From assembly GCF_009687865.1 (NCBI RefSeq), contig NZ_BLAE01000015.1, positions 124,001-188,000 on the forward strand: a stretch of DNA of 64,000 nucleotides, in the 5' to 3' direction. The first letter of the stretch is position 1. Each line of letters begins with the position of its first letter. This DNA is from Acrocarpospora macrocephala. Its GTDB lineage: Bacteria; Actinomycetota; Actinomycetes; Streptosporangiales; Streptosporangiaceae. Shown here in pieces: positions 2,916-16,649 of this stretch. The notes under the pieces are model-generated. The model ran no database searches and had not been told where the DNA came from. It saw nothing but the letters and a program-made list of their open reading frames with translations. The position numbers and the translations under genes are program-made.

Positions 2916-3857
2916 TCAGCCGTCCTGATCCACGGTCAGGACGACCTTTCCGGCGAGCTCACGATCGTGGTACCGGCGGGCGATCCCGGGCAGTTCCCGC
3001 CAGGACGCCTCGGTCTCGACGGGCATCGTCAGCCGCCCGTCCCGTACCAGCCCGAGCAGCCGGTCCAGTCCCGCGCCGGCGGACCGGTCGCGCAACTCGG
3101 TGCCGAGGAAGAACCCGTAGAGCGTGGCCGCGCCCCGCTGGTAGAAATCCCGGGGCTGGAACGTCGTCGCACGCTCCGCCGCGTTGCCGTAGAGCACGCA
3201 CGTTCCGTCGACTTCCAGCCCGGCCAGCGACCGGGCCAGCGAGTCCCCGCCCACGGACTCCAGGATCAGATCGAATCTCCGTGGCAGCGGATGATCGGCG
3301 AGCACCACCTCGTGCACCGCGTCCGCGTCCAGCGTCGCGGCCTGTTCCGGGCCGCGCACCGAGGCGTACACGGTCGCGCCGGCGGCGGCCGCCAGCTGGC
3401 AGGCGAGCCGCCCCACTCCCCCGGACGCGCCGGTGACCAGCACCGAGCGCCCGAGCAGCAACCCGCCGCGCGCCAGTGCGAACAGCGCCGTCAGACCGGC
3501 CACCGGCAGGCAGGCCGCCTGCACGAGGGAGACCTCGTCCGGCACGACGGCGAGATCGGCCGTGCGCACCGCGACCCGCTGCGCCCAGCCACCGCCGCCG
3601 AGACCGGCGAAACCCACCACCCGGGCGCCGGCGGCGGGTCCGGATCCATCGGCCGCCGCGCTCGCGACGACTCCGGCCAGGTCCCACCCCGGACGCCAGC
3701 GGCGGGCCGGGGCGAGCGATTCGCGCACCTCGCCGGCGTTGAGGGAGAACGCCGACACCGCCACCACGGCGTCACCCGCGCCCGGTCGCGGGGGCGGCAC
3801 CTCCTCGATCCGCAGTCCGCCGGGGATGGCCGGGTCGGAGACCACCGCACGTATCAT
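2916..3857 (-). CDS. Zinc-independent MDR / quinone oxidoreductase-like NAD(P)H dehydrogenase
   Basis: A 313-residue medium-chain dehydrogenase/reductase. It has the N-terminal GroES-like fold (PRPGAGDAVVAVSAFSLN) and the nucleotide-binding loop VLVTGASGGVGRLACQLAA near residue 140. The cysteine-rich structural zinc site of classical alcohol dehydrogenases is absent, which fits the quinone-oxidoreductase subgroup. The start is the second of two adjacent ATGs, giving 6 bases from AAGGAG. It is 30 bases downstream of the ferredoxin oxidoreductase gene and probably co-transcribed with it; it may reduce an enone or quinone-like intermediate, which is inference only. Confidence 0.82.
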   Translation of the reverse strand: MIRAVVSDPAIPGGLRIEEVPPPRPGAGDAVVAVSAFSLNAGEVRESLAPARRWRPGWDLAGVVASAAADGSGPAAGARVVGFAGLGGGGWAQRVAVRTADLAVVPDEVSLVQAACLPVAGLTALFALARGGLLLGRSVLVTGASGGVGRLACQLAAAAGATVYASVRGPEQAATLDADAVHEVVLADHPLPRRFDLILESVGGDSLARSLAGLEVDGTCVLYGNAAERATTFQPRDFYQRGAATLYGFFLGTELRDRSAGAGLDRLLGLVRDGRLTMPVETEASWRELPGIARRYHDRELAGKVVLTVDQDG

Positions 3858-3887
3858 CATCTGCTCCTTGGAGTTTGTTTTCGTTCT

Positions 3888-6800
3888 TCAACCGGCCGCC
3901 GGGACCAGTTCTTCGCGCAGTTCCGCGAGCCGCCGCCGGTAGCGTTCGACGTTGTCGAGCTTGATCTGCTCGTATCCCCTGATCATGTCGGGCAGTTCCG
4001 CGATCCGGACGGCCAGGTCGTGGCCGTCCGGGTCGAGGGTCCGCCGCAGTTCGCCGAGGACGGCGCGGTACTCGGCGACCAGCTCGCGTTCCACGCGCCG
4101 CACTCTGGCGAGCCCGAACAGGTCCAGCCGGGTGCCGCGCAGCCGCCGGGCCGCGCGCAGCAGGACAAGCGCCGGCCGGGCCCACGGGCCCAGGGAGATC
4201 TTGCGATCCAGCCCCATGGCCCGCAGCACCGGCGGGTGCAGCCGCCAGCTGAAGCGGGCGCCGGGACCGAACTCCGCGGTGACGCGCGCGGCGAACTCCG
4301 GATCCAGGCACAGCCGCGCGACCTCGTATTCGTCCTTGTACGCCATGAGCTTGTACAACTGGCGGGCCACCGCCTCGGTGAGCGCCTGCGCTCCCGGCGC
4401 CCGCTCCGACTCGGCCCGCCACGTCCGCTCCACCTCGGCCAGGTAGTCCTCGGCGTATCGGACGTCCTGGTAGGCGATGAGATCGGCGGCCCGGTCGGCG
4501 GCCAGGGCCGCGAGATCCTCGGCTGCCGTGGCGTGCACGCCGGGAGCGATCCGGGCGAGCAGGGCGCGTTCCGCGCCGGTTCCCTGCCGCTCCTCCGGTA
4601 CGGCGGGCACGCCTTCCCCGGCGGCACGGCGGCCCAGTTCGAAGGCCCGGAGGTTGCGCTCCACCGCGGCGCCGTTCAACTTGATCGCCTCCTGGAGCGC
4701 GGTCACCGGCAGCGGGAGCGCGCCCGCCTGGTAGGCGGCGCCGAGGAGCACCACGTTGGCGCACTGGTCGTCGCCGAATTCCGCGACGGTGAGCGCTCGG
4801 GCGTCGAGGAAGACGCTCGGCTGAGGGCGGGCAGCGGTCGCGACCCGCGCGGTCAGTTCGGATAGGTCAGGAAACGCCATGCCGGGATCCACGACCATCC
4901 GCCCGGTGGGCACCTGGGCGGTGGACACCACGGCGACGGTGCGCCCAGGGTGGGCGGTCGCGAGGTTCCGCTGGTCCGCCGCGACCAGGAGATCGCACCC
5001 CAGATAGAGATCGCACTCGCCTTCTGCGGCCTTGTTGGCCCGGTCGACCGGGGTCCGGGAGATCTTCAGATCGGAGACGACGGCCCCGCCCTTCTGGGAC
5101 AGGCCGGTCTGGTCGAGGGTGCTGACGTACCGGCCGTCCAGCTGGGCCGCCGCCGCCACGATCTGCGCGACCGTCACCACACCGGTGCCGCCGACGCCGG
5201 TGATCCGGATCGTGAAATCGGTCCCGTCCACGCTCGGCGCCGGCTCTTCGAGCGGCCGGTCCCGGCCGGGGCCGCCGCGGGCCGGCCGGCTGCCGGGACG
5301 GACCGTCACGAACGACGGGCAGTCGCCGTCCAGGCAGGAATAGTCGGTGTTACACGACGACTGGTGGATCCGCGTCTTGCGGCCGTACTCGGTCTGGACC
5401 GGCTGCACCGACAGGCAGTTCGACTTGGCTCCGCAGTCGCCGCAACCCTCGCACACCCGTTCGTTGATGACGATCCGGGTCTGCGGCGCGGCGGCCCCGG
5501 CGCGTTTGCGGTCACGGCGCCGTTCGGCCGCGCACTGCTGGTCGTGGATGAGGACGGTCACCCCGGGCACGGCCGCGAGCGTGCGCTGAGCCTCCTCCAG
5601 CCGGTCCCGGTGCCAGACCGCGGCGCCGCGGGCCAGCCGCACCCGCCGGTACCGGCGCAGGTCCTCGGTGGTCACGATGATCCGGCGCACCCCTTCGGCG
5701 GCCAGCAGTTCGGTCAACTCCGGCACGCTGCGCATGCCGACCGCCCGCTGGCCCCCGGTCATGGCGACGGCCGAGTTGTACAGCAGCTTGAACGTGATGT
5801 TCGCCTCCGCCGCGACGGCCGCCCGGACCGCCAGGCTGCCGGAATGGTGGAAGGTGCCGTCGCCGAGGTTCTGCACCAGGTGACCGGTGTCCACGAACGG
5901 CGCCATGCCGAGCCACTGCGCCCCCTCGCCGCCCATCTGCGTCACCCCGAGCACGTCGCCGACCTGTTCCGGCTCCATCAGCAGCACCATCGCGTGGCAG
6001 CCGATGCCGCCACCGACCAGAGTTCCCGGGGGAACCCGGGTGGACCGGTTGTGCGGGCAGCCCGAGCAGAAGTAGGGAGTGCGCGAGACCAGCGGCAACG
6101 ACCTGCCCGCGGTGACCCGCTGCCGGGGCGCGCGCTCCGCCTGCCAGGCCCGCGCCTGGGGCAGGTCCAGCACGTCGGACAGCCGCGCGGCGAGGGCCGC
6201 GGTGACCGCCTCGACATCCAGTTCGGCGTCCTGCCGCAGCAACGGGGCGCCGCTCGGGTCGTGTTTGCCGACGATCCTGGGCGCCGCGGTCCCGTAGAGC
6301 CGCTCCTTGAGGGCGGTTTCCAGGAAGGGGCGTTTCTCCTCCACGACGAGGATCTCGTCGAGGCCGCCGGCGAACTCCGCCGTGATCACGGGTTCCAGCG
6401 GGTAGATCAGGCCGAGCTTGAGCACCCGGATGCCGTGGCGGGCCAGCGCCTCGTCGTCCAGCCCGAGGCGGCGCAGCGCCTGGCACACATCGAGGTACGC
6501 CTTGCCCGCGGCCACGATGCCGAACCGGTCGGCGGGCCCGGCCGACCGCAGCACGTTGAGCCCGTTGCGGGCGGCGTACTCGCCGGCGACGCGCAGCCGG
6601 ACGCCGAAGGCCGTCGCCTCGGCGGTGACGGGCACGCCGCCGACCAGCTTCGCGGTGACCTCATGCCGGTACGGACGGCCGTCGTGGCTCACCTCGGGCC
6701 GGACCGGCCGGATCCGGTCGAGGCCGACCCGCACCGTGGAACCGCCGTCGGCGATGTTGGTGACCAGCTTCATGGCCGTCCACAGGCCGCTGGCCCGCGA

Positions 6801-7358
6801 CATCTCCACCGCGTGCAGCCCGAGGTCCAGGATGTCCTGCGAATCGCTCGGGTAGAGCGTGGGCATGCCGAGGTCGGCCAGCGCGTGCTCGGACGCGCTG
6901 GGCACCGTCGAGGACTTCGCCACCGGGTCGTCGCCTACCAGGGCCAGGGCCCCGCCCATCGGATGGGTGCCCATCAGGTTGGCGTGCCGCAGGGCGTCGG
7001 TGGCGCGGTCGAGACCGGGCGCCTTGCCGTACCAGACGCCGAAGACGCCCGCGTGGCGCGCGTCGGGCCGGGTCGCGGCGAGCTGGCTGCCCTGGACGGC
7101 CGTCGCCGCGAGCTCCTCGTTGAGGCCGGGCCGGTGGACCAGGTCGTGTTCGGCGAGCAGGTCGGACTGCCGCGCCAGCTCGAGGTCGTAACCCGCCAGC
7201 GGCGACCCCTCGTAACCGGACACGAACCCCGCCGTGCCCAGCCCGCGGGCACGGTCCAGCCGCCGCTGGTCCAGCAGTAACCGGACCAGCGCCTGCGTGC
7301 CGGTCAGGTAGACGGTGCCCGCCGTCGCGGTGTATCGGTCCCGCAGGGTGTCGTTCAT
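3888..7358 (-). CDS. Single-chain indolepyruvate ferredoxin oxidoreductase (IorA-IorB fusion)
   Basis: A 1156-residue protein of the fused indolepyruvate (2-oxoacid) ferredoxin oxidoreductase family, which oxidatively decarboxylates aryl-2-oxoacids to acyl-CoA with ferredoxin as acceptor. The order seen is a pyrimidine-binding/transketolase-like N-terminal half, a thiamine-diphosphate region (GGIGCHAMVLL near 470-480), a cysteine cluster VCEGCGDCGAKSNC plus CNTDYSCLDGDCPSF for Fe-S centres, and a gamma-type domain (ITGVGGTGVVTVAQIVAAAA). The start at MNDTLRD follows GAGAGGG by 6 bases; an upstream extension of 39 residues is not supported. It is divergent from the IclR gene at 7484 and shares its 125-bp control region, so it probably belongs to the same regulon as the BKACE genes. 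Confidence 0.9.
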   Translation of the reverse strand: MNDTLRDRYTATAGTVYLTGTQALVRLLLDQRRLDRARGLGTAGFVSGYEGSPLAGYDLELARQSDLLAEHDLVHRPGLNEELAATAVQGSQLAATRPDARHAGVFGVWYGKAPGLDRATDALRHANLMGTHPMGGALALVGDDPVAKSSTVPSASEHALADLGMPTLYPSDSQDILDLGLHAVEMSRASGLWTAMKLVTNIADGGSTVRVGLDRIRPVRPEVSHDGRPYRHEVTAKLVGGVPVTAEATAFGVRLRVAGEYAARNGLNVLRSAGPADRFGIVAAGKAYLDVCQALRRLGLDDEALARHGIRVLKLGLIYPLEPVITAEFAGGLDEILVVEEKRPFLETALKERLYGTAAPRIVGKHDPSGAPLLRQDAELDVEAVTAALAARLSDVLDLPQARAWQAERAPRQRVTAGRSLPLVSRTPYFCSGCPHNRSTRVPPGTLVGGGIGCHAMVLLMEPEQVGDVLGVTQMGGEGAQWLGMAPFVDTGHLVQNLGDGTFHHSGSLAVRAAVAAEANITFKLLYNSAVAMTGGQRAVGMRSVPELTELLAAEGVRRIIVTTEDLRRYRRVRLARGAAVWHRDRLEEAQRTLAAVPGVTVLIHDQQCAAERRRDRKRAGAAAPQTRIVINERVCEGCGDCGAKSNCLSVQPVQTEYGRKTRIHQSSCNTDYSCLDGDCPSFVTVRPGSRPARGGPGRDRPLEEPAPSVDGTDFTIRITGVGGTGVVTVAQIVAAAAQLDGRYVSTLDQTGLSQKGGAVVSDLKISRTPVDRANKAAEGECDLYLGCDLLVAADQRNLATAHPGRTVAVVSTAQVPTGRMVVDPGMAFPDLSELTARVATAARPQPSVFLDARALTVAEFGDDQCANVVLLGAAYQAGALPLPVTALQEAIKLNGAAVERNLRAFELGRRAAGEGVPAVPEERQGTGAERALLARIAPGVHATAAEDLAALAADRAADLIAYQDVRYAEDYLAEVERTWRAESERAPGAQALTEAVARQLYKLMAYKDEYEVARLCLDPEFAARVTAEFGPGARFSWRLHPPVLRAMGLDRKISLGPWARPALVLLRAARRLRGTRLDLFGLARVRRVERELVAEYRAVLGELRRTLDPDGHDLAVRIAELPDMIRGYEQIKLDNVERYRRRLAELREELVPAAG

Positions 7359-7380: not shown

Positions 7381-7492
7381 GTTCCGAATAGAGAAACCTT
7401 GATTCGGATAGAGGTACGAATTGCTCGCACTGATCCTGCGGTTTTTCTCCTGAATGTCAAGACCGGACATAGCATGTTCCGCTATGAGGAAC
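7381..7492. promoter_or_regulatory. Divergent control region with three palindrome-like operators
   Basis: Between the two divergent starts lie GTTCCGAATAGAGAAAC (7381-7397), ATTCG-N10-CGAAT (7402-7421) and GTTCCGCTATGAGGAAC (7476-7492). The first and third share the frame GTTCCG..AT.AG..AAC, and the third has perfect GTTCC/GGAAC arms and covers the IclR start codon. This arrangement suits autoregulation by the IclR protein and control of the ferredoxin oxidoreductase gene. The sites are seen directly; the assignment to IclR is inference. Confidence 0.55.
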
Positions 7493-8311
7493 GAATCTGA
7501 GGCGACGAGCCGGGAGGAACGCGGGCTCGGGTCGGTGGCCAACGCGCTTCGCCTGCTGGAGACCATGGCGCGGGTGCCCCAGGCCGGGGTGTCGGAACTG
7601 GCCAGGGCGCTGCACCTGTCGAAGGCGTCGATGGACCGCCTGCTGTCCACGTTCACCCGCGCGGGGTTCGCCGAGCAGGACCCGGCCACCCGAAAGTACC
7701 GGCTGACCGTCAAGATCGTCGCACTGGCCGAGAGCGTGCGATCGCGGATCGGCCTCGTGGAGATCGCCCGGCCGCACCTGACCGGGCTGGCCGAACAGGT
7801 CCACGAGGCCGTCAACCTCGGCGTCTACCTCGACGGGGGCATGGTGTATCTCGACAGCATCCCCTCCAGGCACACCTTCCAGATCGAGGCGCGGCCCGGA
7901 GTCATGCTGCCGGCCTACTGCACCGGCGCGGGCAAGGCCATCCTGGCCTTCAGCCGGCCCGAGGTGGTCGAGTCGTACCTGGCCGGGGTGGCCCCGGTCG
8001 CGCACACGCGGTTCACCCTCACCAGCGTCTCGCTCATCCGGGAGGAGCTGGAGTCCATCCGGCGGGCCGGTTTCGCCGAGGACAAAGGGGAACTGCTGGA
8101 GGAGGCGTGCTGCGCGGCCGCGCCGGTGCCCGGCCCCGACGGCTACGCGGTGGCGGCCCTGTCGGTCACCGCTCCCCGCTCCCGCTACTCCGTCAGGCGG
8201 GCCGAACTGATCTCGGCCGTCACCGCGGCGGCGGAGCGGGTCACCGCCGGTATCGCCGCCGCGGGCATCACCGCCCCGGGCCGTACGAACCCGGCGCCGC
8301 CGCTGTCGTGA
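7484..8311 (+). CDS. IclR-family transcriptional regulator
   Basis: About 275 residues. The N-terminal winged helix-turn-helix is clear (LGSVANALRLLETMARVPQ, then SELARALHLSKASMDRLLSTF), followed by the IclR effector-binding domain with the typical segments LPAYCTGAGKAILAF and FAEDKGELLEEACCAAAPV. IclR proteins usually control catabolic operons and bind a small acid from the pathway. It is divergent from the ferredoxin oxidoreductase and 98 bases upstream of the BKACE-kinase genes, so it is the probable pathway regulator. The ATG at 7484 lies inside an inverted repeat and has little Shine-Dalgarno complementarity, so translation may be leaderless. Confidence 0.9.
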   Translation: MRNESEATSREERGLGSVANALRLLETMARVPQAGVSELARALHLSKASMDRLLSTFTRAGFAEQDPATRKYRLTVKIVALAESVRSRIGLVEIARPHLTGLAEQVHEAVNLGVYLDGGMVYLDSIPSRHTFQIEARPGVMLPAYCTGAGKAILAFSRPEVVESYLAGVAPVAHTRFTLTSVSLIREELESIRRAGFAEDKGELLEEACCAAAPVPGPDGYAVAALSVTAPRSRYSVRRAELISAVTAAAERVTAGIAAAGITAPGRTNPAPPLS

Positions 8312-8409: not shown

Positions 8410-9303
8410 ATGAAGAAGCTGGTCATCGGGGTGCACCCGAACGAAGGCACCATGCGGGAGCCGAACCCGCATGTCCCGTGGACTCCGGAGGAGATCGCGG
8501 ACGACACGGCCGCGGCCCGGGAGGCGGGGGCCGCCGTGGTGCACTTCCACGCCCGTACGGCCACCGGCGGCGTGGATCACACGCCGGAGACGTACGGCAA
8601 GATCATGGCCGCGATCCGGGACCGCTGCGACATCCTGCTCGCCCCCACCCTGGCCAACGCCCCCGAGCACACGCTCGCCCAGCGGCTGGCCAACGTGGTG
8701 GAGAACGCCGCCGACCCCCGGACGCGAACGGACTTCCTGGTGGCGGAGATGGGCTGCGCGGTGATGGACCTGTGGGATCCGCAGGCCCGCCGGTTCACCT
8801 CGGAGAACCGGCTGTTCCTCAACGACACCGCGACGCAGCGCAGCCTGCTGGCCAAGGCCGCCGAACTCGGGATGACACCGTGGCTGCCCACCTTCAACGT
8901 GAGCTGGACCCGCGCCCTCACCGCCCACCTGGACTCCGGAGCCGTCGCCGGGCGGGCGGTCGTGCACCTGATCCTCGGCGGTCCCGAGTTCCCCGCCGCC
9001 CATCCGGCCACCGTCGAGGGTCTCCGCGCCCACCTGGACTTCCTGCCCGCCGGCCACGAGTACGAATGGTTCGTCTCGGCCTACCGGGGGGACGTGCTCG
9101 CGGTCGCCGAGGAGGCCATCCGGCGCGGCGGGCACGTCTCCATCGGCGTCGGCGACCACCACTACGCCCACCTCGGCCTGCCGACCAACGCCGAACTGGT
9201 GCGGCGGGTGGCCGAGCTGTCCCGGCGGATCGGCCGCGAGGTGGCCACCCCGGCGGAGGCTCGGCGCCTGCTGTGCGGCGGCCACGACACGGCGGAATGC
9301 TGA
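8410..9303 (+). CDS. BKACE / beta-keto acid cleavage enzyme family protein (DUF849)
   Basis: A 297-residue TIM-barrel protein of the BKACE family, whose studied members condense a beta-keto acid with acetyl-CoA and release acetoacetate plus a new CoA ester. Recognisable are the opening VIGVHPNE, WTPEEIADD and the metal-binding HFHAR (HxH). The Glu-bearing segment before strand 5 (usually P-E-x-E-V-F) reads TPWLPTFN, and the C-terminal R-x-G-x-E-D motif reads SIGVGDHH, so two glutamates and an arginine expected at the active site appear missing. The ATG at 8410 is 5 bases after GGAGG; a GTG 3 bases earlier is too close. It may act together with the BKACE domain of the fusion at 10318. Confidence 0.85.
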   Translation: MKKLVIGVHPNEGTMREPNPHVPWTPEEIADDTAAAREAGAAVVHFHARTATGGVDHTPETYGKIMAAIRDRCDILLAPTLANAPEHTLAQRLANVVENAADPRTRTDFLVAEMGCAVMDLWDPQARRFTSENRLFLNDTATQRSLLAKAAELGMTPWLPTFNVSWTRALTAHLDSGAVAGRAVVHLILGGPEFPAAHPATVEGLRAHLDFLPAGHEYEWFVSAYRGDVLAVAEEAIRRGGHVSIGVGDHHYAHLGLPTNAELVRRVAELSRRIGREVATPAEARRLLCGGHDTAEC

Positions 9304-9305
9304 CG

Positions 9306-10304
9306 ATGACCGACTACGCCGAGTCGCTCGTCACCTCGTCCCTGGCCAGTCTGCACCGGGCCAATCCGCACCTGGTCGTCTGCCACCCCGACCCCGCCTA
9401 CGTGGTGCGCGCCCCTGCCGACGGCGCCCCCAAGGTCGCGCTCGTCTCCGGGGGCGGCTCCGGCCACGAGCCGCTGCACACCGGGTTCGTCGGCACCGGG
9501 ATGCTCGACGCCGCCGTACCCGGAGCCATCTTCGCCAGCCCCACCGCGAGCCAGATCAGGGCGGCGATCCGGGCCGCGCACCGGGGCCGGGGGGCACTGC
9601 TGATCGTCAAGAACTACACCGGCGACGTGCTCAACTTCTCCATCGCCGCGGAACTGGCCGCCGCCGACGGCATCGAGACCCGTACCGTCCTCGTCGACGA
9701 CGACCTGGCGACCGGCGAGCGCGCCGGCCAGGATCCGCACCACCCGGGACGGCGCGGCACCGCCGCCGTCATCGCGGTGGAGAAGATCTGCGGCGCGGCG
9801 GCCGAGGCCGGCGCCGGCCTCGACGAGCTGGCCGACCTGGGCCGGCGGGTCGTCGGATCGGCGCGCACCATGGCCCTGGCCCTGGCCGCCTGCACCCATC
9901 CCAGCCAGCTCCGCCCCGCCTTCGAACTGGGCGATGACGAGATCGAGTTCGGGGTCGGCATCCACGGCGAACGGGGCGTCGAGGTACGCCGCCGCACCGC
10001 GGTGCCCGACCTGGTGGCCTCGCTCGCCGAGCCGATCACCGAAGCGCTGGGGCTGGCCGAGGGGGACGCCGTGATCGCGATCGTGAACGGCCTGGGCGGC
10101 ACGTACGGCCTGGAGCTGTCCCTGGTCCACGACGCGCTGGCCGCGTATCTCGACACCCGCGGCATCGGCATCGCCCGCACCCTGGTCGGCGACTACGTCA
10201 CCGCGCTGGACATGCGCGGCTTCTCGATCACCCTGGTGCGCGCCGCCGAGGAGTTCGTCGACCTGTGGGACGCCCCCGTCCGGGCCCCGGCCCTGACCTG
10301 GTGA
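9306..10304 (+). CDS. DhaK-type dihydroxyacetone (ketose) kinase subunit
   Basis: A 332-residue homologue of DhaK, the substrate-binding half of dihydroxyacetone kinases. It shows VALVSGGGSGHEPLHTGFVG near residue 40, IVKNYTGDVLNF and DDDLATG, and the EFGVGIHGERG segment carrying the histidine that covalently holds the ketose in characterised DhaK proteins. The ATP-binding DhaL partner is encoded next, at the N-terminus of the following gene. DhaK homologues phosphorylate dihydroxyacetone or C4 ketoses such as erythrulose; which applies here is unknown. A start 9 bases upstream (MLT) overlaps the previous stop and is equally possible. Confidence 0.88.
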   Translation: MTDYAESLVTSSLASLHRANPHLVVCHPDPAYVVRAPADGAPKVALVSGGGSGHEPLHTGFVGTGMLDAAVPGAIFASPTASQIRAAIRAAHRGRGALLIVKNYTGDVLNFSIAAELAAADGIETRTVLVDDDLATGERAGQDPHHPGRRGTAAVIAVEKICGAAAEAGAGLDELADLGRRVVGSARTMALALAACTHPSQLRPAFELGDDEIEFGVGIHGERGVEVRRRTAVPDLVASLAEPITEALGLAEGDAVIAIVNGLGGTYGLELSLVHDALAAYLDTRGIGIARTLVGDYVTALDMRGFSITLVRAAEEFVDLWDAPVRAPALTW

Positions 10305-10317
10305 GAGGAACGCACCG

Positions 10318-11856
10318 ATGGATGTTCTGCGAGCCGACGAGGCGCGGGCGTGGATCGAGGCGTTCCACGCCGCCGTCGAGCGGCACCACGACGAACTCAC
10401 CGACCTCGACCGCCGCGCGGGCGACGGCGACTTCGGCGCCAACGTGCTGTCGGCGCTCCGGCGCGCCGCGGCCATCCTCCGCACCGCCCCCGCCGACACC
10501 GCGGCAGCGGTCTTCACCGCGGTGGCGGAAGGCTTCCTGAACACCGGCGGGACCAGCGGGCCGCTCTTCGGCATGTGGTTCCGGGAGTTCGCGCTCGCGT
10601 CCGCCCCGGACCTCGCCACCGCCGACCTGGCCCGGGCGGTCCAGAACGGTCTGCGTACGGTGCAACGGCTCGGGCATGCCGAGGTGGGGCACAAGACGAT
10701 GGTCGACGCGATGGCGCCGGCGGCCGACGCGCTGCGGGTCGCGGCGGAGGCCGGGGAGCGACCCGCGGCCGCGCTGCGGCGGGCGGCGCGGGCCGCCCAG
10801 ACCGGCGCCCGGTCCACCGAGGCGCTGCTGGCGCGGCGCGGACGGGCCAGCTATGTCGGCGCGCGCGCCGTCGGCGTGGTCGACCCCGGGGCGCGCACCG
10901 TCGCGCTGTTCTTCGAGTCCGCTCCTGTGGGGGGTTCGCCGCGGCCCGCGACCGCTCGCAAGGTGATCGTCACAGTCGCCCCGACCGGGGGTTTCCTCAC
11001 CCCGGACACGCACCCGTACGTGCCGACCCAGCCGGAGGAGATCGCCGAGGAGGTGCACCGCTGTTTCGACGCCGGCGCCGCCATGGCCGCGCTCCACGCC
11101 CGCCGGCCCGACCACACCGCCACCTGCGACCCAGCCGTCTACCGGCGGATCAACGGGCTGATCAGGGAACGCTGCGACATCGTGCTGAACAACTCCACCG
11201 GTGGCGGGGCCAGCGGCGACATGGTGCGCCGCACCGCCGACGGCACCCTCGTCGTCGACTGGGACCAGCGGTTACGCGGACTCGACGGCGGCGCGGAGAC
11301 CTGCACCCTGGACGGCTTCACGGCGTACGCGACCGCGCCGGCCGGCGAACTGCTCATGGACACCCCGCCCTCCAAGGTCCGGCAGCTGGCGCTGTCGATG
11401 CGGGAGAAGGGCGTCAAACCCGAGTGGGAGGTCTTCAACCCCGCACACCTCGTCCAGGAGGTGGCCGAACTGACCGCCGCGGGATATGACAGCACGCCGT
11501 ACCTGGTGAACCTGGTGCTCGGCATGCACGGAACGTTCCAGAACGCCATGCCGTACACGCCGCGCATCCTCCAGCACCTGGTGGACCTGCTGCCCGCCGG
11601 CGCGGTCTTCACCGCGACCGTCTGCGGGGCCGAGCAGATCCGCGGTCTCACCCACGCCCTCCTCCTCGGCGGGCACGTCCGGGTCGGCATCGAGGACAAC
11701 CCGTTCACCCCCGCAGGGGAGCCCCACCGCAACGCGGAGCAGGTGGAGCACATCGTGCGCGTCATCCACGAACTGGGCATGGAACCGGCGACCCCGGCCG
11801 AGGCGCGCGAGATCCTCGGCCTTCCCCCGCGACAGGAGGCTGACTGTGCCGTCTGA
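10318..11856 (+). CDS. Fusion: DhaL-type kinase subunit + BKACE (DUF849) domain
   Basis: One uninterrupted 512-codon frame. Residues 1 to about 205 are DhaL, the ADP/ATP-Mg subunit of dihydroxyacetone kinases: LDRRAGDGDFGANV (Asp cluster; the usual GDGDHG has Phe for His), FLNTGGTSGPLFGMWF, GHKTMVDAM and RGRASYVGARAVGVVDPGA. After a short linker (SAPVGGSPRPATA) residues from about 216 are a full BKACE domain: VIVTVAPTGG, YVPTQPEEIAEEV, ALHARRPD, NNSTGGG, KPEWEVFN and HVRVGIEDN. The first histidine of the HxH metal motif is Ala here. The ATG follows GAGAGGAACGCACC. Fusion of a kinase subunit to a beta-keto acid cleavage domain is not an arrangement I recognise. No stop or codon-bias break is seen at the junction, which argues against a sequencing artefact. 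Confidence 0.88.
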   Translation: MDVLRADEARAWIEAFHAAVERHHDELTDLDRRAGDGDFGANVLSALRRAAAILRTAPADTAAAVFTAVAEGFLNTGGTSGPLFGMWFREFALASAPDLATADLARAVQNGLRTVQRLGHAEVGHKTMVDAMAPAADALRVAAEAGERPAAALRRAARAAQTGARSTEALLARRGRASYVGARAVGVVDPGARTVALFFESAPVGGSPRPATARKVIVTVAPTGGFLTPDTHPYVPTQPEEIAEEVHRCFDAGAAMAALHARRPDHTATCDPAVYRRINGLIRERCDIVLNNSTGGGASGDMVRRTADGTLVVDWDQRLRGLDGGAETCTLDGFTAYATAPAGELLMDTPPSKVRQLALSMREKGVKPEWEVFNPAHLVQEVAELTAAGYDSTPYLVNLVLGMHGTFQNAMPYTPRILQHLVDLLPAGAVFTATVCGAEQIRGLTHALLLGGHVRVGIEDNPFTPAGEPHRNAEQVEHIVRVIHELGMEPATPAEAREILGLPPRQEADCAV

Positions 11857-13576
11857 CCGGCCCCGGCTGCGCTCCCAGGACTGGTTCGGCGCGGACGGCA
11901 TCGCCGGCTTCGCGCACCGGTCGTGGCTGAAGAACCAGGGACTGCCCGATCGGGTCTTCGACGGGCGCCCGGTCATCGGCATCTGCAACACCTTCTCGGA
12001 GCTGACACCCTGCAACGCGCACTTCCGCGAGCTCGCCGAGCACGTCAAACGGGGAGTGCTCGAAGCCGGCGGCCTGCCCCTGGAGTTCCCCGTGACCTCG
12101 CTCGGCGAGACGGTGATGCGGCCCACCACCATGCTGCTGCGGAACCTGGCCAGCATGGACGTGGAGGAGTCGATCCGGGCCAACCCGATCGACGGGGTGG
12201 TGCTCCTGTGCGGCTGCGACAAGACCACCCCGGCGCTGCTGATGGGGGCGGCCAGCTGCGACCTGCCGACCATCGTCGTCTCCGGCGGCCCGATGCTGAC
12301 CGGGCGGTACCGTGGCCGGCCCATCGGCTCGGGCACGTCGGTGTTCGCCATGAACGAGGAGGTGCGGGCGGGCCGCATGAGCCAGGCCGAGTTCCGCGCG
12401 GCCGAAGCCTGCGCCTCGCGGTCGGCCGGGCACTGCAACACCATGGGCACCGCCTCGACCATGGCGAGCGTCGTGGAGGCGCTCGGCCTGGGGCTGCCGG
12501 GAAACGCCGACATCCCCGCCGTGGACGCGCGCCGCCGGGTCCTGGCCCGGGACGCCGGGCGCCGCGCCGTCGGCCTGGTCCACGAGAACGTACCGATGTC
12601 GGCGATCCTGACCAGGGCCGCGTTCGAGAACGCGATCCGGGTGGTCGCCGCGATCGGCGGATCGACCAATGCCGTGATCCACCTGCTCGCGCTGGCCGGC
12701 CGGATCGAAGCCGGGCTGATATTGGACGACTTCGACAAAGTCGCCCGAGGGGTCCCCCTCCTAGTCGATCTCATGCCGTCGGGCCGTCACCTGATGGAGG
12801 ACTTCTTCGCGGCCGGCGGTCTCCAGGCCGTCCTGAGCGAGCTGGGTGACCTGCTGCACCGCGAGGCTCGTACGGTCACCGGGCGGACCATCGGCGAAGA
12901 GGCGGCCGACGCGCAGGTCTGGGACCGGGAGGTGATCAGATCGGTGGCCGACCCGCTCGCGCCGGAGGCGGGAATCGCCGTGCTGCGCGGCAACCTGGCG
13001 CCGGACGGCGCGGTGATCAAGCCGTCGGCGGCCAGCCCGCACCTGCTGCGCCACCGGGGCCGCGCGCTCACGTTCACCGGTGTGGAGGACCTGCGGTCCC
13101 GCATCGACGATCCGGCGCTGGCGGTCGACGAGGACACGGTGCTGGTCCTGACCGGCGCGGGGCCGCGCGGGTACCCCGGGATGCCGGAGGTGGGCAACCT
13201 TCCCCTGCCGAGCGCCCTGCTCCGCCGCGGCGTCCGGGACCTGGTACGGATCTCCGACGCCCGGATGAGCGGCACCGCGTACGGCACCGTCGTCCTGCAC
13301 GTGTCACCGGAAGCGGCGGCCGGTGGACCACTGGCCCTGGTCCGGGACGGCGACATGATCGAACTCGACGTCGAGCACCGCCGGCTGCATCTCGACCTCC
13401 CCGCGGCGGAACTCACCCGTCGCCGACGGCAGTGGCGGCCCCCCGCCGCGCCGCAGGGGGGCGGCTATCGGAGACTGTACGTCGACCACGTGCTCCAGGC
13501 CGACCGGGGAGCCGACTTCGACTTCCTGGTCGGGCGACGCGGGGTTCAGGTGACGGGCGACAACCACCTTGGGTAG
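11846..13576 (+). CDS. IlvD/Edd-family dehydratase (sugar-acid or dihydroxyacid dehydratase)
   Basis: 576 residues, the usual size of this Fe-S dehydratase family. Conserved cysteines occur in NTFSELTPCNAHF, LLCGCDKTTPALLMG and GHCNTMGTASTMASV, and the C-terminal half has GPRGYPGMPEV and RISDARMSGTAYGTVV. The family removes water from 2,3-dihydroxyacids, including branched-chain precursors, gluconate-6-phosphate and pentonates. In a catabolic run with a kinase and an SDR, a sugar-acid substrate is more likely than valine synthesis. The GTG start at 11846 is preceded by AGGAGG at 6 bases and overlaps the fusion gene by 11 bases, so the two are coupled. Confidence 0.9.
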   Translation: MPSDRPRLRSQDWFGADGIAGFAHRSWLKNQGLPDRVFDGRPVIGICNTFSELTPCNAHFRELAEHVKRGVLEAGGLPLEFPVTSLGETVMRPTTMLLRNLASMDVEESIRANPIDGVVLLCGCDKTTPALLMGAASCDLPTIVVSGGPMLTGRYRGRPIGSGTSVFAMNEEVRAGRMSQAEFRAAEACASRSAGHCNTMGTASTMASVVEALGLGLPGNADIPAVDARRRVLARDAGRRAVGLVHENVPMSAILTRAAFENAIRVVAAIGGSTNAVIHLLALAGRIEAGLILDDFDKVARGVPLLVDLMPSGRHLMEDFFAAGGLQAVLSELGDLLHREARTVTGRTIGEEAADAQVWDREVIRSVADPLAPEAGIAVLRGNLAPDGAVIKPSAASPHLLRHRGRALTFTGVEDLRSRIDDPALAVDEDTVLVLTGAGPRGYPGMPEVGNLPLPSALLRRGVRDLVRISDARMSGTAYGTVVLHVSPEAAAGGPLALVRDGDMIELDVEHRRLHLDLPAAELTRRRRQWRPPAAPQGGGYRRLYVDHVLQADRGADFDFLVGRRGVQVTGDNHLG

Positions 13577-13585
13577 GGAGAGACG

Positions 13586-14311
13586 ATGACGGGTGTCGCG
13601 GTGGTGACCGGTGCGGGTTCCGGGATCGGCAGGGTGGTGAGCAGAGCGCTCCTGGAAGCCGGGTACCTGGTGGCGCTCGCCGGCCGGCGGGCGGAACCGC
13701 TCCGCGAGAGCGCCGGAGACCACCCCGGCGCCCTGGTCGTGCCCGCGGACGTGGCCGACCCGGACTCGGTGGCCGCGCTCTTCGATCGGGTACGGGACCA
13801 CTGGGGCCGGCTGGACCTGCTGTTCAACAACGCCGGCACCTTCGGTCCGCGCGGCGCCGTCGACGAGATCTCGGCGGCCGACTGGCGCCGTGTCGTGGAC
13901 ACGAACCTGACGGGCGCGTTCCTGTGCGCCCAGCACGCGTTCGCCATCATGAAAGAGCAGCTGCCCCAGGGCGGGCGCATCATCAACAACGGCTCCGTCT
14001 CCGCGCACACCCCTCGCCCCCGCAGCGTGGCGTACACCGCCACCAAGCACGCGCTCACCGGCCTGACGAAATCGATCGCGCTCGACGGCCGGCCGTACCG
14101 GATCGCCTGCGGACAGATCGACATCGGCAACGCGGCCACCGAGATGACCGTCGACCTGGCCCGGCCGGACCACGGGCCTGCGCCGGAACCGACGTTCGAC
14201 CCGGCACACGTCGCGGACGCGGTGCTCCTGATGGCGAATCTTCCCCTGGACGCGAACGTGCTGTTCCTGACCATCACCGCGACGGCTATGCCATTCGTCG
14301 GCCGGGGCTGA
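13586..14311 (+). CDS. SDR-family oxidoreductase
   Basis: 241 residues, complete classical SDR. It has the cofactor loop [21 protein letters not shown], the catalytic Ser in INNGSVS and Tyr-x-x-x-Lys in [10 protein letters not shown], and ends with [11 protein letters not shown]. It begins 9 bases after the dehydratase stop with GGGAGAG as ribosome site, so it completes the catabolic operon. It probably oxidises or reduces a hydroxyl/keto group of the pathway substrate. Confidence 0.9.
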
Positions 14312-15128: not shown

Positions 15129-15356
15129 CCCTGCATGGTACGCATCACCGAGGGGGATGAGGTCTCGCCCGCCCGCGAGCAGACGCCAGCCTCCTGAAAG
15201 GGCAGGGATAACCCCAGGTTCCGCACCGAGCGGGCACGGATGTGTCCGGCGTGGATACAGCGCATTCTCATAGCGCACGCAAATCCCGCCAATCGACACC
15301 GGAGGAGACATGGAACGCCCGGTGCACCACCACATGAACCGCGCGAGGTGACCGTC

Positions 15357-16649
15357 ATGGAGATCGCCATCGTGATCACCCTGGCCGCGGGCGTCGTCAA
15401 GGGACTGGCCTGGCTCCGGCAGCGTCTTCGCAGGCGCAGAACGGAAGGCGGCGTCCCGCTCGGGCAGGCCAGTATCGACTCCGCCGTCCCGACCTTCCGG
15501 ATCGTGTCCCTCGGACTGCAGGGCGCCGGCAAGACGCTGCTGCTGGCCAGCATGTTCCACGAACTTCAGGCGCCGACGCGGCAGAGCTACTACCTGTCCG
15601 CCGCGCCGGCCGACGTGGCCAAGCTCACCGAGTGGTTCGCCACCATGGCCGACACCACCGACCCCGGGGGCTGGCCGGCCGGGACCACGCTGAGCGAGAC
15701 CCGGCGCTTCGCCTTCACCGTCAAGACCAGGACCGCGGACTCCGTGCACGACATCCTGCGCCTGGACTACCTGGAGTACGCCGGCGAACTGCTCACCCGT
15801 ACCGACCCGGCCGGAGCCGAACGGCAGGCGGAACTGTTCGCCCAGGTCCAGTCGGCCGACGCCGTGCTCGGCATCCTGGACGGCCAGCGGATCCGCCAGC
15901 ACCTGGACGGTGAGGCACGCGGCTGGGCCGAACTGGACCGGACCCTCAACATCCTCATCCCGCACATGATGAACATCACCTGCCCGATCAGCTTCGTCCT
16001 CACCAAATGGGACCTGCTGGCCGACCTGCACGAGGACGAGGACACCCGGCTGGCCCGCGTCCGTGACCTGCTGATGGCCAACGATCACTTCCGGGCCCTG
16101 GTGAACACGCACGGCACGCAGCGCGTGGTCCGGCTCATCCCGGTGAGCGCGGTCGGCCGGGGATTCGCCACCATCGACCAGCACGGCCACGTGGTCAAGG
16201 TCCCGAGCGCCCAGGCGCAGCCGACCTACGCCGACGTGCCCCTGTCCGCCGTGGTTCCCGACGTCTTCGACCAGGCCGAGATGCGCCTGCACGAGGAGTT
16301 CACCGCCGACCTGGACGAGGAGATCCGCCAGTGGACCCGGCGGACGCCGCTGGAGCGGCTCTCCTCGGCGGCCACGCTGGCCGGGCAGTCGGCCGGGCGG
16401 GCGCTCCTGCAGTACATCGGCACGCCCGCTGTCACCGTGATGGGCGACGTGATGATGGGCATGTTCCTGGACTCCCGCCGCCGCCGAGCCGACACCGAGG
16501 AGGCCCAGGTCGACCGGCAGGTGAACCAGGCCGAACGGCGGGTCCAGGAGTTCCTGCACGCCCGCCGACGGGTGCTCCGCGACATGCGCGGCAAGCCTGA
16601 CCAGCTCGAAGGCCGGCTTCCCAGTTCCCGTCTCACGGCTGGACTGTGA
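15357..16649 (+). CDS. Membrane-tethered P-loop GTPase, uncharacterised
   Basis: 430 residues. Residues 1-17 form one hydrophobic segment (MEIAIVITLAAGVVKGL) followed by a basic stretch RQRLRRRR. The GTPase core has a P-loop SLGLQGAGKTLLL near residue 60, a possible switch II in LDYLEYAGELL, and TKWD matching the base-specifying N/TKxD motif, so it belongs broadly to TRAFAC-type GTPases. The C-terminal third is helical and ends in a charged, coiled-coil-like run (EEAQVDRQVNQAERRVQEFL). Its stop overlaps the next gene as GTGA. I do not recognise a characterised homologue; roles in membrane remodelling or defence are possible but not shown. Confidence 0.75.
   Translation: MEIAIVITLAAGVVKGLAWLRQRLRRRRTEGGVPLGQASIDSAVPTFRIVSLGLQGAGKTLLLASMFHELQAPTRQSYYLSAAPADVAKLTEWFATMADTTDPGGWPAGTTLSETRRFAFTVKTRTADSVHDILRLDYLEYAGELLTRTDPAGAERQAELFAQVQSADAVLGILDGQRIRQHLDGEARGWAELDRTLNILIPHMMNITCPISFVLTKWDLLADLHEDEDTRLARVRDLLMANDHFRALVNTHGTQRVVRLIPVSAVGRGFATIDQHGHVVKVPSAQAQPTYADVPLSAVVPDVFDQAEMRLHEEFTADLDEEIRQWTRRTPLERLSSAATLAGQSAGRALLQYIGTPAVTVMGDVMMGMFLDSRRRRADTEEAQVDRQVNQAERRVQEFLHARRRVLRDMRGKPDQLEGRLPSSRLTAGL

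Follow-up and report, generated by a model that had tools for sequence, protein, structure and literature searches.

A DhaL kinase subunit read in one frame with a BKACE-family barrel: a probable private fusion of adjacent genes in a conserved actinobacterial operon

The window analyzed here, a stretch of 64,000 nucleotides, comes from the genome of Acrocarpospora macrocephala, a 12.1 Mb draft in 166 contigs with matches to three BKACE-family and five Dak2 domains. Within it, a single open reading frame couples a DhaL-type kinase subunit to a BKACE-family (DUF849) TIM barrel (BKACE2). This frame is the fourth of six genes running in the same direction, which code for an IclR-family regulator, a separate BKACE-family protein (BKACE1), DhaK, the fused DhaL::BKACE2 protein, an IlvD/EDD-type dehydratase and an SDR-family dehydrogenase:

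7454..8311 (+): IclR-family regulator at the operon head (Pfam PF01614/PF09339)
8410..9303 (+): BKACE1, a PF05853-family protein (PF05853 search of the same genome; PDB 5zmu, E 1.6e-67)
9297..10304 (+): DhaK (Dak1) subunit, presumed partner of the DhaL domain (PF02733, E 5e-112; start by gene calling)
10318..11856 (+): DhaL::BKACE2 fused ORF, 512 aa (uninterrupted ATG ORF of 512 codons)
10318..10920 (+): DhaL (Dak2) domain, residues 1-201 (Pfam, NCBIfam, alignment to PDB 2btd/3pnl)
10921..10959 (+): join of about 13 residues, where relatives have an ATGA/GTGA overlap
10960..11823 (+): BKACE-family TIM barrel (BKACE2), residues 215-502 (Pfam, alignments, AF2)
11846..13576 (+): IlvD/EDD-type dehydratase (Pfam; NCBIfam PRK06131, PRK13016)
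13586..14311 (+): SDR-family dehydrogenase (Pfam PF00106, E 5e-47)

The packing is tight, as expected of an operon, with BKACE1 running into the start of dhaK and the fused ORF into the dehydratase gene, and we infer that the six genes share one transcript. The dehydratase exceeds the cut-offs of two broad models for dihydroxy-acid dehydratases and falls short of the one for L-arabinonate dehydratase (898.8 bits against a cut-off of 539 for NCBIfam PRK06131; 824.5 bits, under the cut-off of 882, for PRK13016, L-arabinonate dehydratase), matches that would point to a sugar acid without naming which. The closest solved relative of BKACE1 is the cis-epoxysuccinate hydrolase CESH[D] (PDB 5zmu, E 1.6e-67, the next different enzyme following at 5.2e-23). 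It retains the His-x-His motif but none of the other three BKACE residues (catalytic Glu, Arg, metal Glu); PMC6429283 describes the cis-epoxysuccinate hydrolase family as sharing no more than two of the three metal ligands of Kce. This likeness concerns the neighboring BKACE1 alone and not the fused chain. A literature search confined to open-licence papers found no described pathway for an operon with DhaK, DhaL, dehydratase, SDR and two BKACE-fold proteins. Beside the operon lie genes for a 1156-aa protein with POR and DUF6537 domains (3888-7358, minus strand) and for a zinc-type dehydrogenase (2916-3860, minus strand), homologs of both of which occupy the same place in Dactylosporangium sucinum (L047). 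Just downstream, 15240-16649 (plus strand) gives a weak, above-cut-off match to Double-GTPase 2 (PF19993).

Both halves of the fused protein are recovered by Pfam well above cut-off: Dak2 (PF02734) at residues 34-201 (E 8.9e-43, 146.6 bits against 27) and BKACE (PF05853) at residues 215-502 (E 1.6e-73, 247.9 bits against 24.8), the latter over profile positions 1-274 of 274. The DhaL domain also scores 149.7 bits against NCBIfam TIGR02365, above the equivalog cut-off of 138.3. Third-position GC stays at 0.86-0.96 in every block of 50 codons as far as residue 500, so that both halves look coding in the fused frame. The original prediction of a DhaL subunit and a BKACE domain in a single-frame chain is thus borne out by the 512 open codons and the two domain matches. 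An AF2 model of the fused protein gives a well-modelled barrel (block pLDDT 75-98 over residues 211-500) and a poor DhaL half (block pLDDT 37-74, with residues 176-212 below 50), the latter because the alignment used contained no DhaL rows; the model is thus uninformative for the packing of the domains.

The aspartates of the DhaL nucleotide site are conserved in the alignment to PDB 2btd/3pnl, and we take them to be the counterparts of the Mg-ADP ligands of E. coli DhaL. As in the DhaL of dihydroxyacetone kinase (PF02734, TIGR02365, 2btd, 3pnl), the whole Dak2 domain is present and dhaK is adjacent, the DhaK partner being encoded directly upstream (PF02733, 9297-10304); the window version differs in its C-terminal fusion to the barrel. 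The operon has no dhaM, and the one DhaM match in the genome is on another contig beside another dhaL, so the phosphate donor could be ATP or DhaM. Standalone dhaK-dhaL loci, in Amycolatopsis and others, are as close to the window as the operon copies, so the kinase itself is probably of the ordinary short-ketose type; to name dihydroxyacetone as its substrate would be a guess. Neither these standalone loci nor the dhaK-dhaL-SDR loci of Nocardiopsis gave a further clue.

The barrel presents a more unusual picture. Its E371 corresponds to the catalytic E171 of BKACE15 (residue numbers counted on the 8rio alignment) and is invariant in 18 sequences, as are R455 and the metal Glu E459, and H260 is kept. 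The first metal His is replaced by A258 in 18 of 18 sequences, and the canonical Tyr by F373 in the window, with Phe at this position nearly always in the 18. The catalytic role of the Glu, where the Arg had earlier been proposed as the base, is set out in PMC11961710, and a preprint (PMC12871164) gives the Tyr (Tyr173 of PdKce) for all BKACEs and a metal site of His-x-His plus Glu, for example H48, H50 and E247 of BsfD. BKACE2 thus has the catalytic Glu and departs from both the His-x-His plus Glu metal site (A258) and the Tyr (F373). In comparison with Kce (2y7d) and BKACE15/PdKce (8rio/8rip), it shares the full barrel profile, the Glu, the Arg and the metal Glu, and differs in its Ala for the first metal His and its Phe for the Tyr. 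The barrel had been called a complete BKACE barrel; this holds for the fold, which spans the full PF05853 profile, and not for the active site, where one metal His and the Tyr are replaced. As these changes are common to the whole clade, unfused proteins included, they were not caused by the fusion. All NCBIfam BKACE equivalogs that match BKACE2 do so under their cut-offs.

A related departure is found in BsfD, a divergent DUF849 enzyme of flavophos biosynthesis, which, according to PMC12871164, belongs to the same family, has Phe for Tyr as in BKACE2 and does not perform the standard cleavage; it retains both metal His, unlike BKACE2, and has a phosphonate-binding insertion. Two of the seven DUF849 groups are also reported in PMC4922564 not to be BKACEs. 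With the first metal His and the Tyr missing, acetyl-CoA-dependent C-C cleavage would have to count as unproven for BKACE2. Relatives of the barrel adjoin thioesterases and acyl-CoA enzymes, a context that would fit an acyl-CoA product and speak for ordinary BKACE chemistry. Those at 50-56% identity adjoin a thioesterase and, in one locus (L059), also a 3-hydroxyacyl-CoA dehydrogenase. These neighbors suggested a CdhC-type cleavage of 3-dehydrocarnitine (carnitine route; PMC5806209 and PMC12482172), which we dropped, judging by neighbor genes alone, on the plasmid neighborhoods: the three inspected of 13 plasmid matches lie in gentisate/acyl-CoA, dioxygenase/maleylacetate reductase and carotenoid-oxygenase/biotin-carboxylase settings, which belong to other and in part aromatic pathways, none of them carnitine-like. 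That a BKACE can cleave a sugar acid has a precedent in oxidative deoxyribonate catabolism, which combines an SDR with a BKACE; the relevant portion of its description (PMC6365646) mentions neither an IlvD nor a DhaKL step. A decarboxylation route to dihydroxyacetone would be conjecture, and no substrate is claimed.

The same operon occurs in other actinobacteria with the two domains as separate genes. A pattern-based scan of genome contigs with the fused protein as query gave 75 loci, 13 of which have both domains side by side (L047-L056, L058, L076 and L113); a search of the order added two further two-domain loci (G260 and G215), its G181 being identical to L048. In all 15 of these genomes the BKACE gene is read in another frame than dhaL, and an ATGA or GTGA at their boundary makes a possible barrel start overlap the dhaL stop by four bases (12 loci read by script, the other three individually: L055 and L058 because of a motif misfit, L076 because of its further frameshifts). 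In L048, an additional ATG that lies 32 bases downstream, behind a purine-rich stretch, may be the true start of the barrel gene. The closest relative of the window is L047, with identities of 66% for DhaL, 73% for BKACE2, 72% for BKACE1, 72% for DhaK, 78% for the SDR and 81% for IlvD; as these are similar in the fused and the unfused parts, neither domain looks decaying. In trees, L047 is the partner of the window DhaK (98/98) and IlvD (99/99) with starred support, and of the window DhaL (82/79) and BKACE2 (89/81) with unstarred support. Sequence identity to the window proteins across the undamaged operon loci is 57-72% for DhaK and 50-66% for DhaL. In a DhaL tree of 18 rows, which holds only some of the loci, G260 and G215 group with the one Nocardiopsis row, apart from the other operons, a pattern suggesting that the kinase was exchanged at some point in the history of the operon.

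Ten of the 11 gene-called operon loci contain further genes, for a transporter, a VOC protein, a second SDR and, in one or two copies, domains of ~142 aa, and five of the 11 encode a lactonase-like protein; the remaining locus, L047, resembles the window in carrying no such extra gene between the IclR and SDR genes. A related cluster in Amycolatopsis deserti (L057) has BKACE1, ~142-aa genes, BKACE2 and an SDR, without dhaK, dhaL or ilvD; a dhaK-dhaL pair of this species is on another contig (L091). In Pseudonocardia sp. MH-G8 (L055, 9517-10341, plus strand), an apparent internal deletion has joined the first part of ilvD in-frame to the end of the SDR gene.

Among the matches listed, sorted by E-value, a full-length match to the fused protein occurs in one of 297 genomes of the order, that of the window; some match at E 0.001 is present in 280 of the 297, nearly all of them one-domain (again among the matches listed). 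The window genome is likewise the one with a match at E 1e-90 among 394 genomes of the class and at E 1e-50 among five of the genus, the other four of which have none; the three samples overlap and hold one genome per species. Plasmids add 13 matching records out of 72,556, none of which covers 80% of the protein, and a literature search for a DhaL-BKACE fusion returned no instance, the two enzyme names co-occurring in one paper, in a synthetic-pathway context. The statement that this architecture is not known from described systems is supported, with no second instance in the genomes, plasmids and literature searched, and a search for Dak2 and BKACE in one chain, as had been suggested for actinobacterial genomes, yields the window genome as the sole case in these overlapping samples. 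This uniqueness holds for the sampled genomes; unsampled strains may share the fusion.

With the genes separate in all 15 relatives and fused in the window only, we most likely see a private fusion of genes that were already coupled, and we consider it reasonably probable that the frame arose by lineage-private, in-frame joining of two genes that lie side by side in a conserved actinobacterial operon for sugar-acid catabolism. The overlap of the dhaL stop with a BKACE start in the relatives probably couples translation of the two genes. In the window lineage this overlap would have been lost and a short, unconserved DhaL tail would have absorbed a net frame change, letting the ribosome read through into the barrel; this direction of change is read from the 15 relatives and not from a reconstructed ancestor. 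Each domain most likely keeps the function of the separate protein: the DhaL part would carry the nucleotide for the DhaK encoded upstream, which would phosphorylate a short ketose such as dihydroxyacetone, and the barrel would take an acid intermediate of that pathway as its substrate. Being joined would then set a 1:1 ratio of the domains and add no new reaction.

The join is where such a fusion has to be distinguished from an assembly or sequencing indel, by which one base would be extra or missing, DhaL would end soon after and the barrel would start separately. We regard an indel as somewhat unlikely. It draws weight from the fact that the fusion is known from one assembled sequence of a single draft genome of 166 contigs, from a run of six G in the join, from the separate state of the genes in 15 of 15 relatives and from a coding signal that is weak whichever frame is read: under a codon model derived from this operon, the 17 codons that span the join (10912-10962) reach -4.34, closer to the mean of -6.12 for off-frame reading than to the in-frame mean of +4.67 (2073 in-frame 16-codon windows, 5% point -4.73), and the alternative frames score -5.95 and -4.05, no other frame being clearly better. 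The earlier statement that there is no bias shift at the join was accordingly too strong, the score being near the in-frame 5% point. Two GTG codons of the barrel frame lie near the join, one inside it at 10927 and one at 10963. Shifting DhaL by one base across the join restores the arrangement of the relatives, with a TGA stop at 10964-10966 that overlaps the GTG at 10963 by four bases. However, this GTG sits within the conserved KVIVT strand of the barrel, two or more residues later than the starts in the relatives, and the same GTGA is present in L049 and G260 although their dhaL stops earlier, where it is a codon coincidence. Relative to L047, the window has four more bases between the conserved ends and a GCGA aligned to the ATGA, the exact placement depending on the alignment; as it is without both the stop and the start at that position, the join has changed in any case. 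Given the coincidental GTGA and the loss of the first residues of the conserved strand that a start at 10963 would entail, a true fusion appears more likely than an assembly error, though not by a wide margin.

If the chain is real, it might also be a bifunctional enzyme under selection, in which kinase subunit and barrel act on linked intermediates and benefit from being one chain. Both domains look intact, and the genes are neighbors in all 15 relatives, so that they probably serve one pathway; this operon membership was already true of the separate genes and adds no support for consecutive reactions. That phosphorylation and C-C cleavage act on consecutive intermediates, as was originally proposed, does not follow from a fusion when all 15 relatives have separate, overlapping cistrons. 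In A. deserti the cluster contains the barrel gene but no dhaK, dhaL or ilvD, the DhaL grouping of G260 and G215 suggests that the kinase was exchanged, no second fused case was found among the genomes and plasmids searched, and a consecutive reaction cannot be written without a substrate; we therefore hold such selection to be decidedly improbable. A broader version, a real bifunctional chain in an undescribed actinobacterial sugar-acid pathway, where a cis-epoxysuccinate-hydrolase-like protein and an Ala-x-His barrel with non-standard chemistry would be tied to the kinase subunit, is less far-fetched and still doubtful. The absence of a match at E 1e-50 from all four other genomes of the genus and the want of the transporter, VOC protein, second SDR and ~142-aa genes of 10 of the 11 gene-called relatives could mean that the fusion impairs one domain of an operon heading to loss; with all six genes open, even identities to L047, the key residues kept and the same reduced gene set in L047, such decay is hardly credible.

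We thus return to the fusion of neighboring genes, and the locus has the look of a local joining event and not of a novel type of enzyme. Probably this is a joined protein with two working halves, and the loss of the stop/start overlap in one lineage would be the most economical reading. If real, it illustrates cleanly how a four-base stop/start overlap can give rise to a single fused chain. Of wider interest is the operon itself, which in 16 actinobacterial genomes including that of the window combines DhaK and DhaL with a dehydratase, an SDR and two unusual proteins of the BKACE fold; with its atypical metal site, the barrel among them may have a chemistry other than the standard cleavage.

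The domains of ~142 aa are paralogous and mostly encoded by a gene pair between BKACE1 and dhaK (BKACE2 in L057), for example at 6112-6540 and 6540-6974 (plus strand) of L049, and also in L048, L050, L052, L054, L055, L057, L058, L076, L040 and L041; they are absent from the window operon and L047. The L049 pair has no match in Pfam or NCBIfam, L048 gives weak, doubtful Pfam matches alone, and Foldseek against the PDB returned none at E <= 0.001. With an AF2 model at pLDDT 86 and conserved SHGG/SNGG, NDAG.GK and D.W motifs, they possibly represent an undescribed family.
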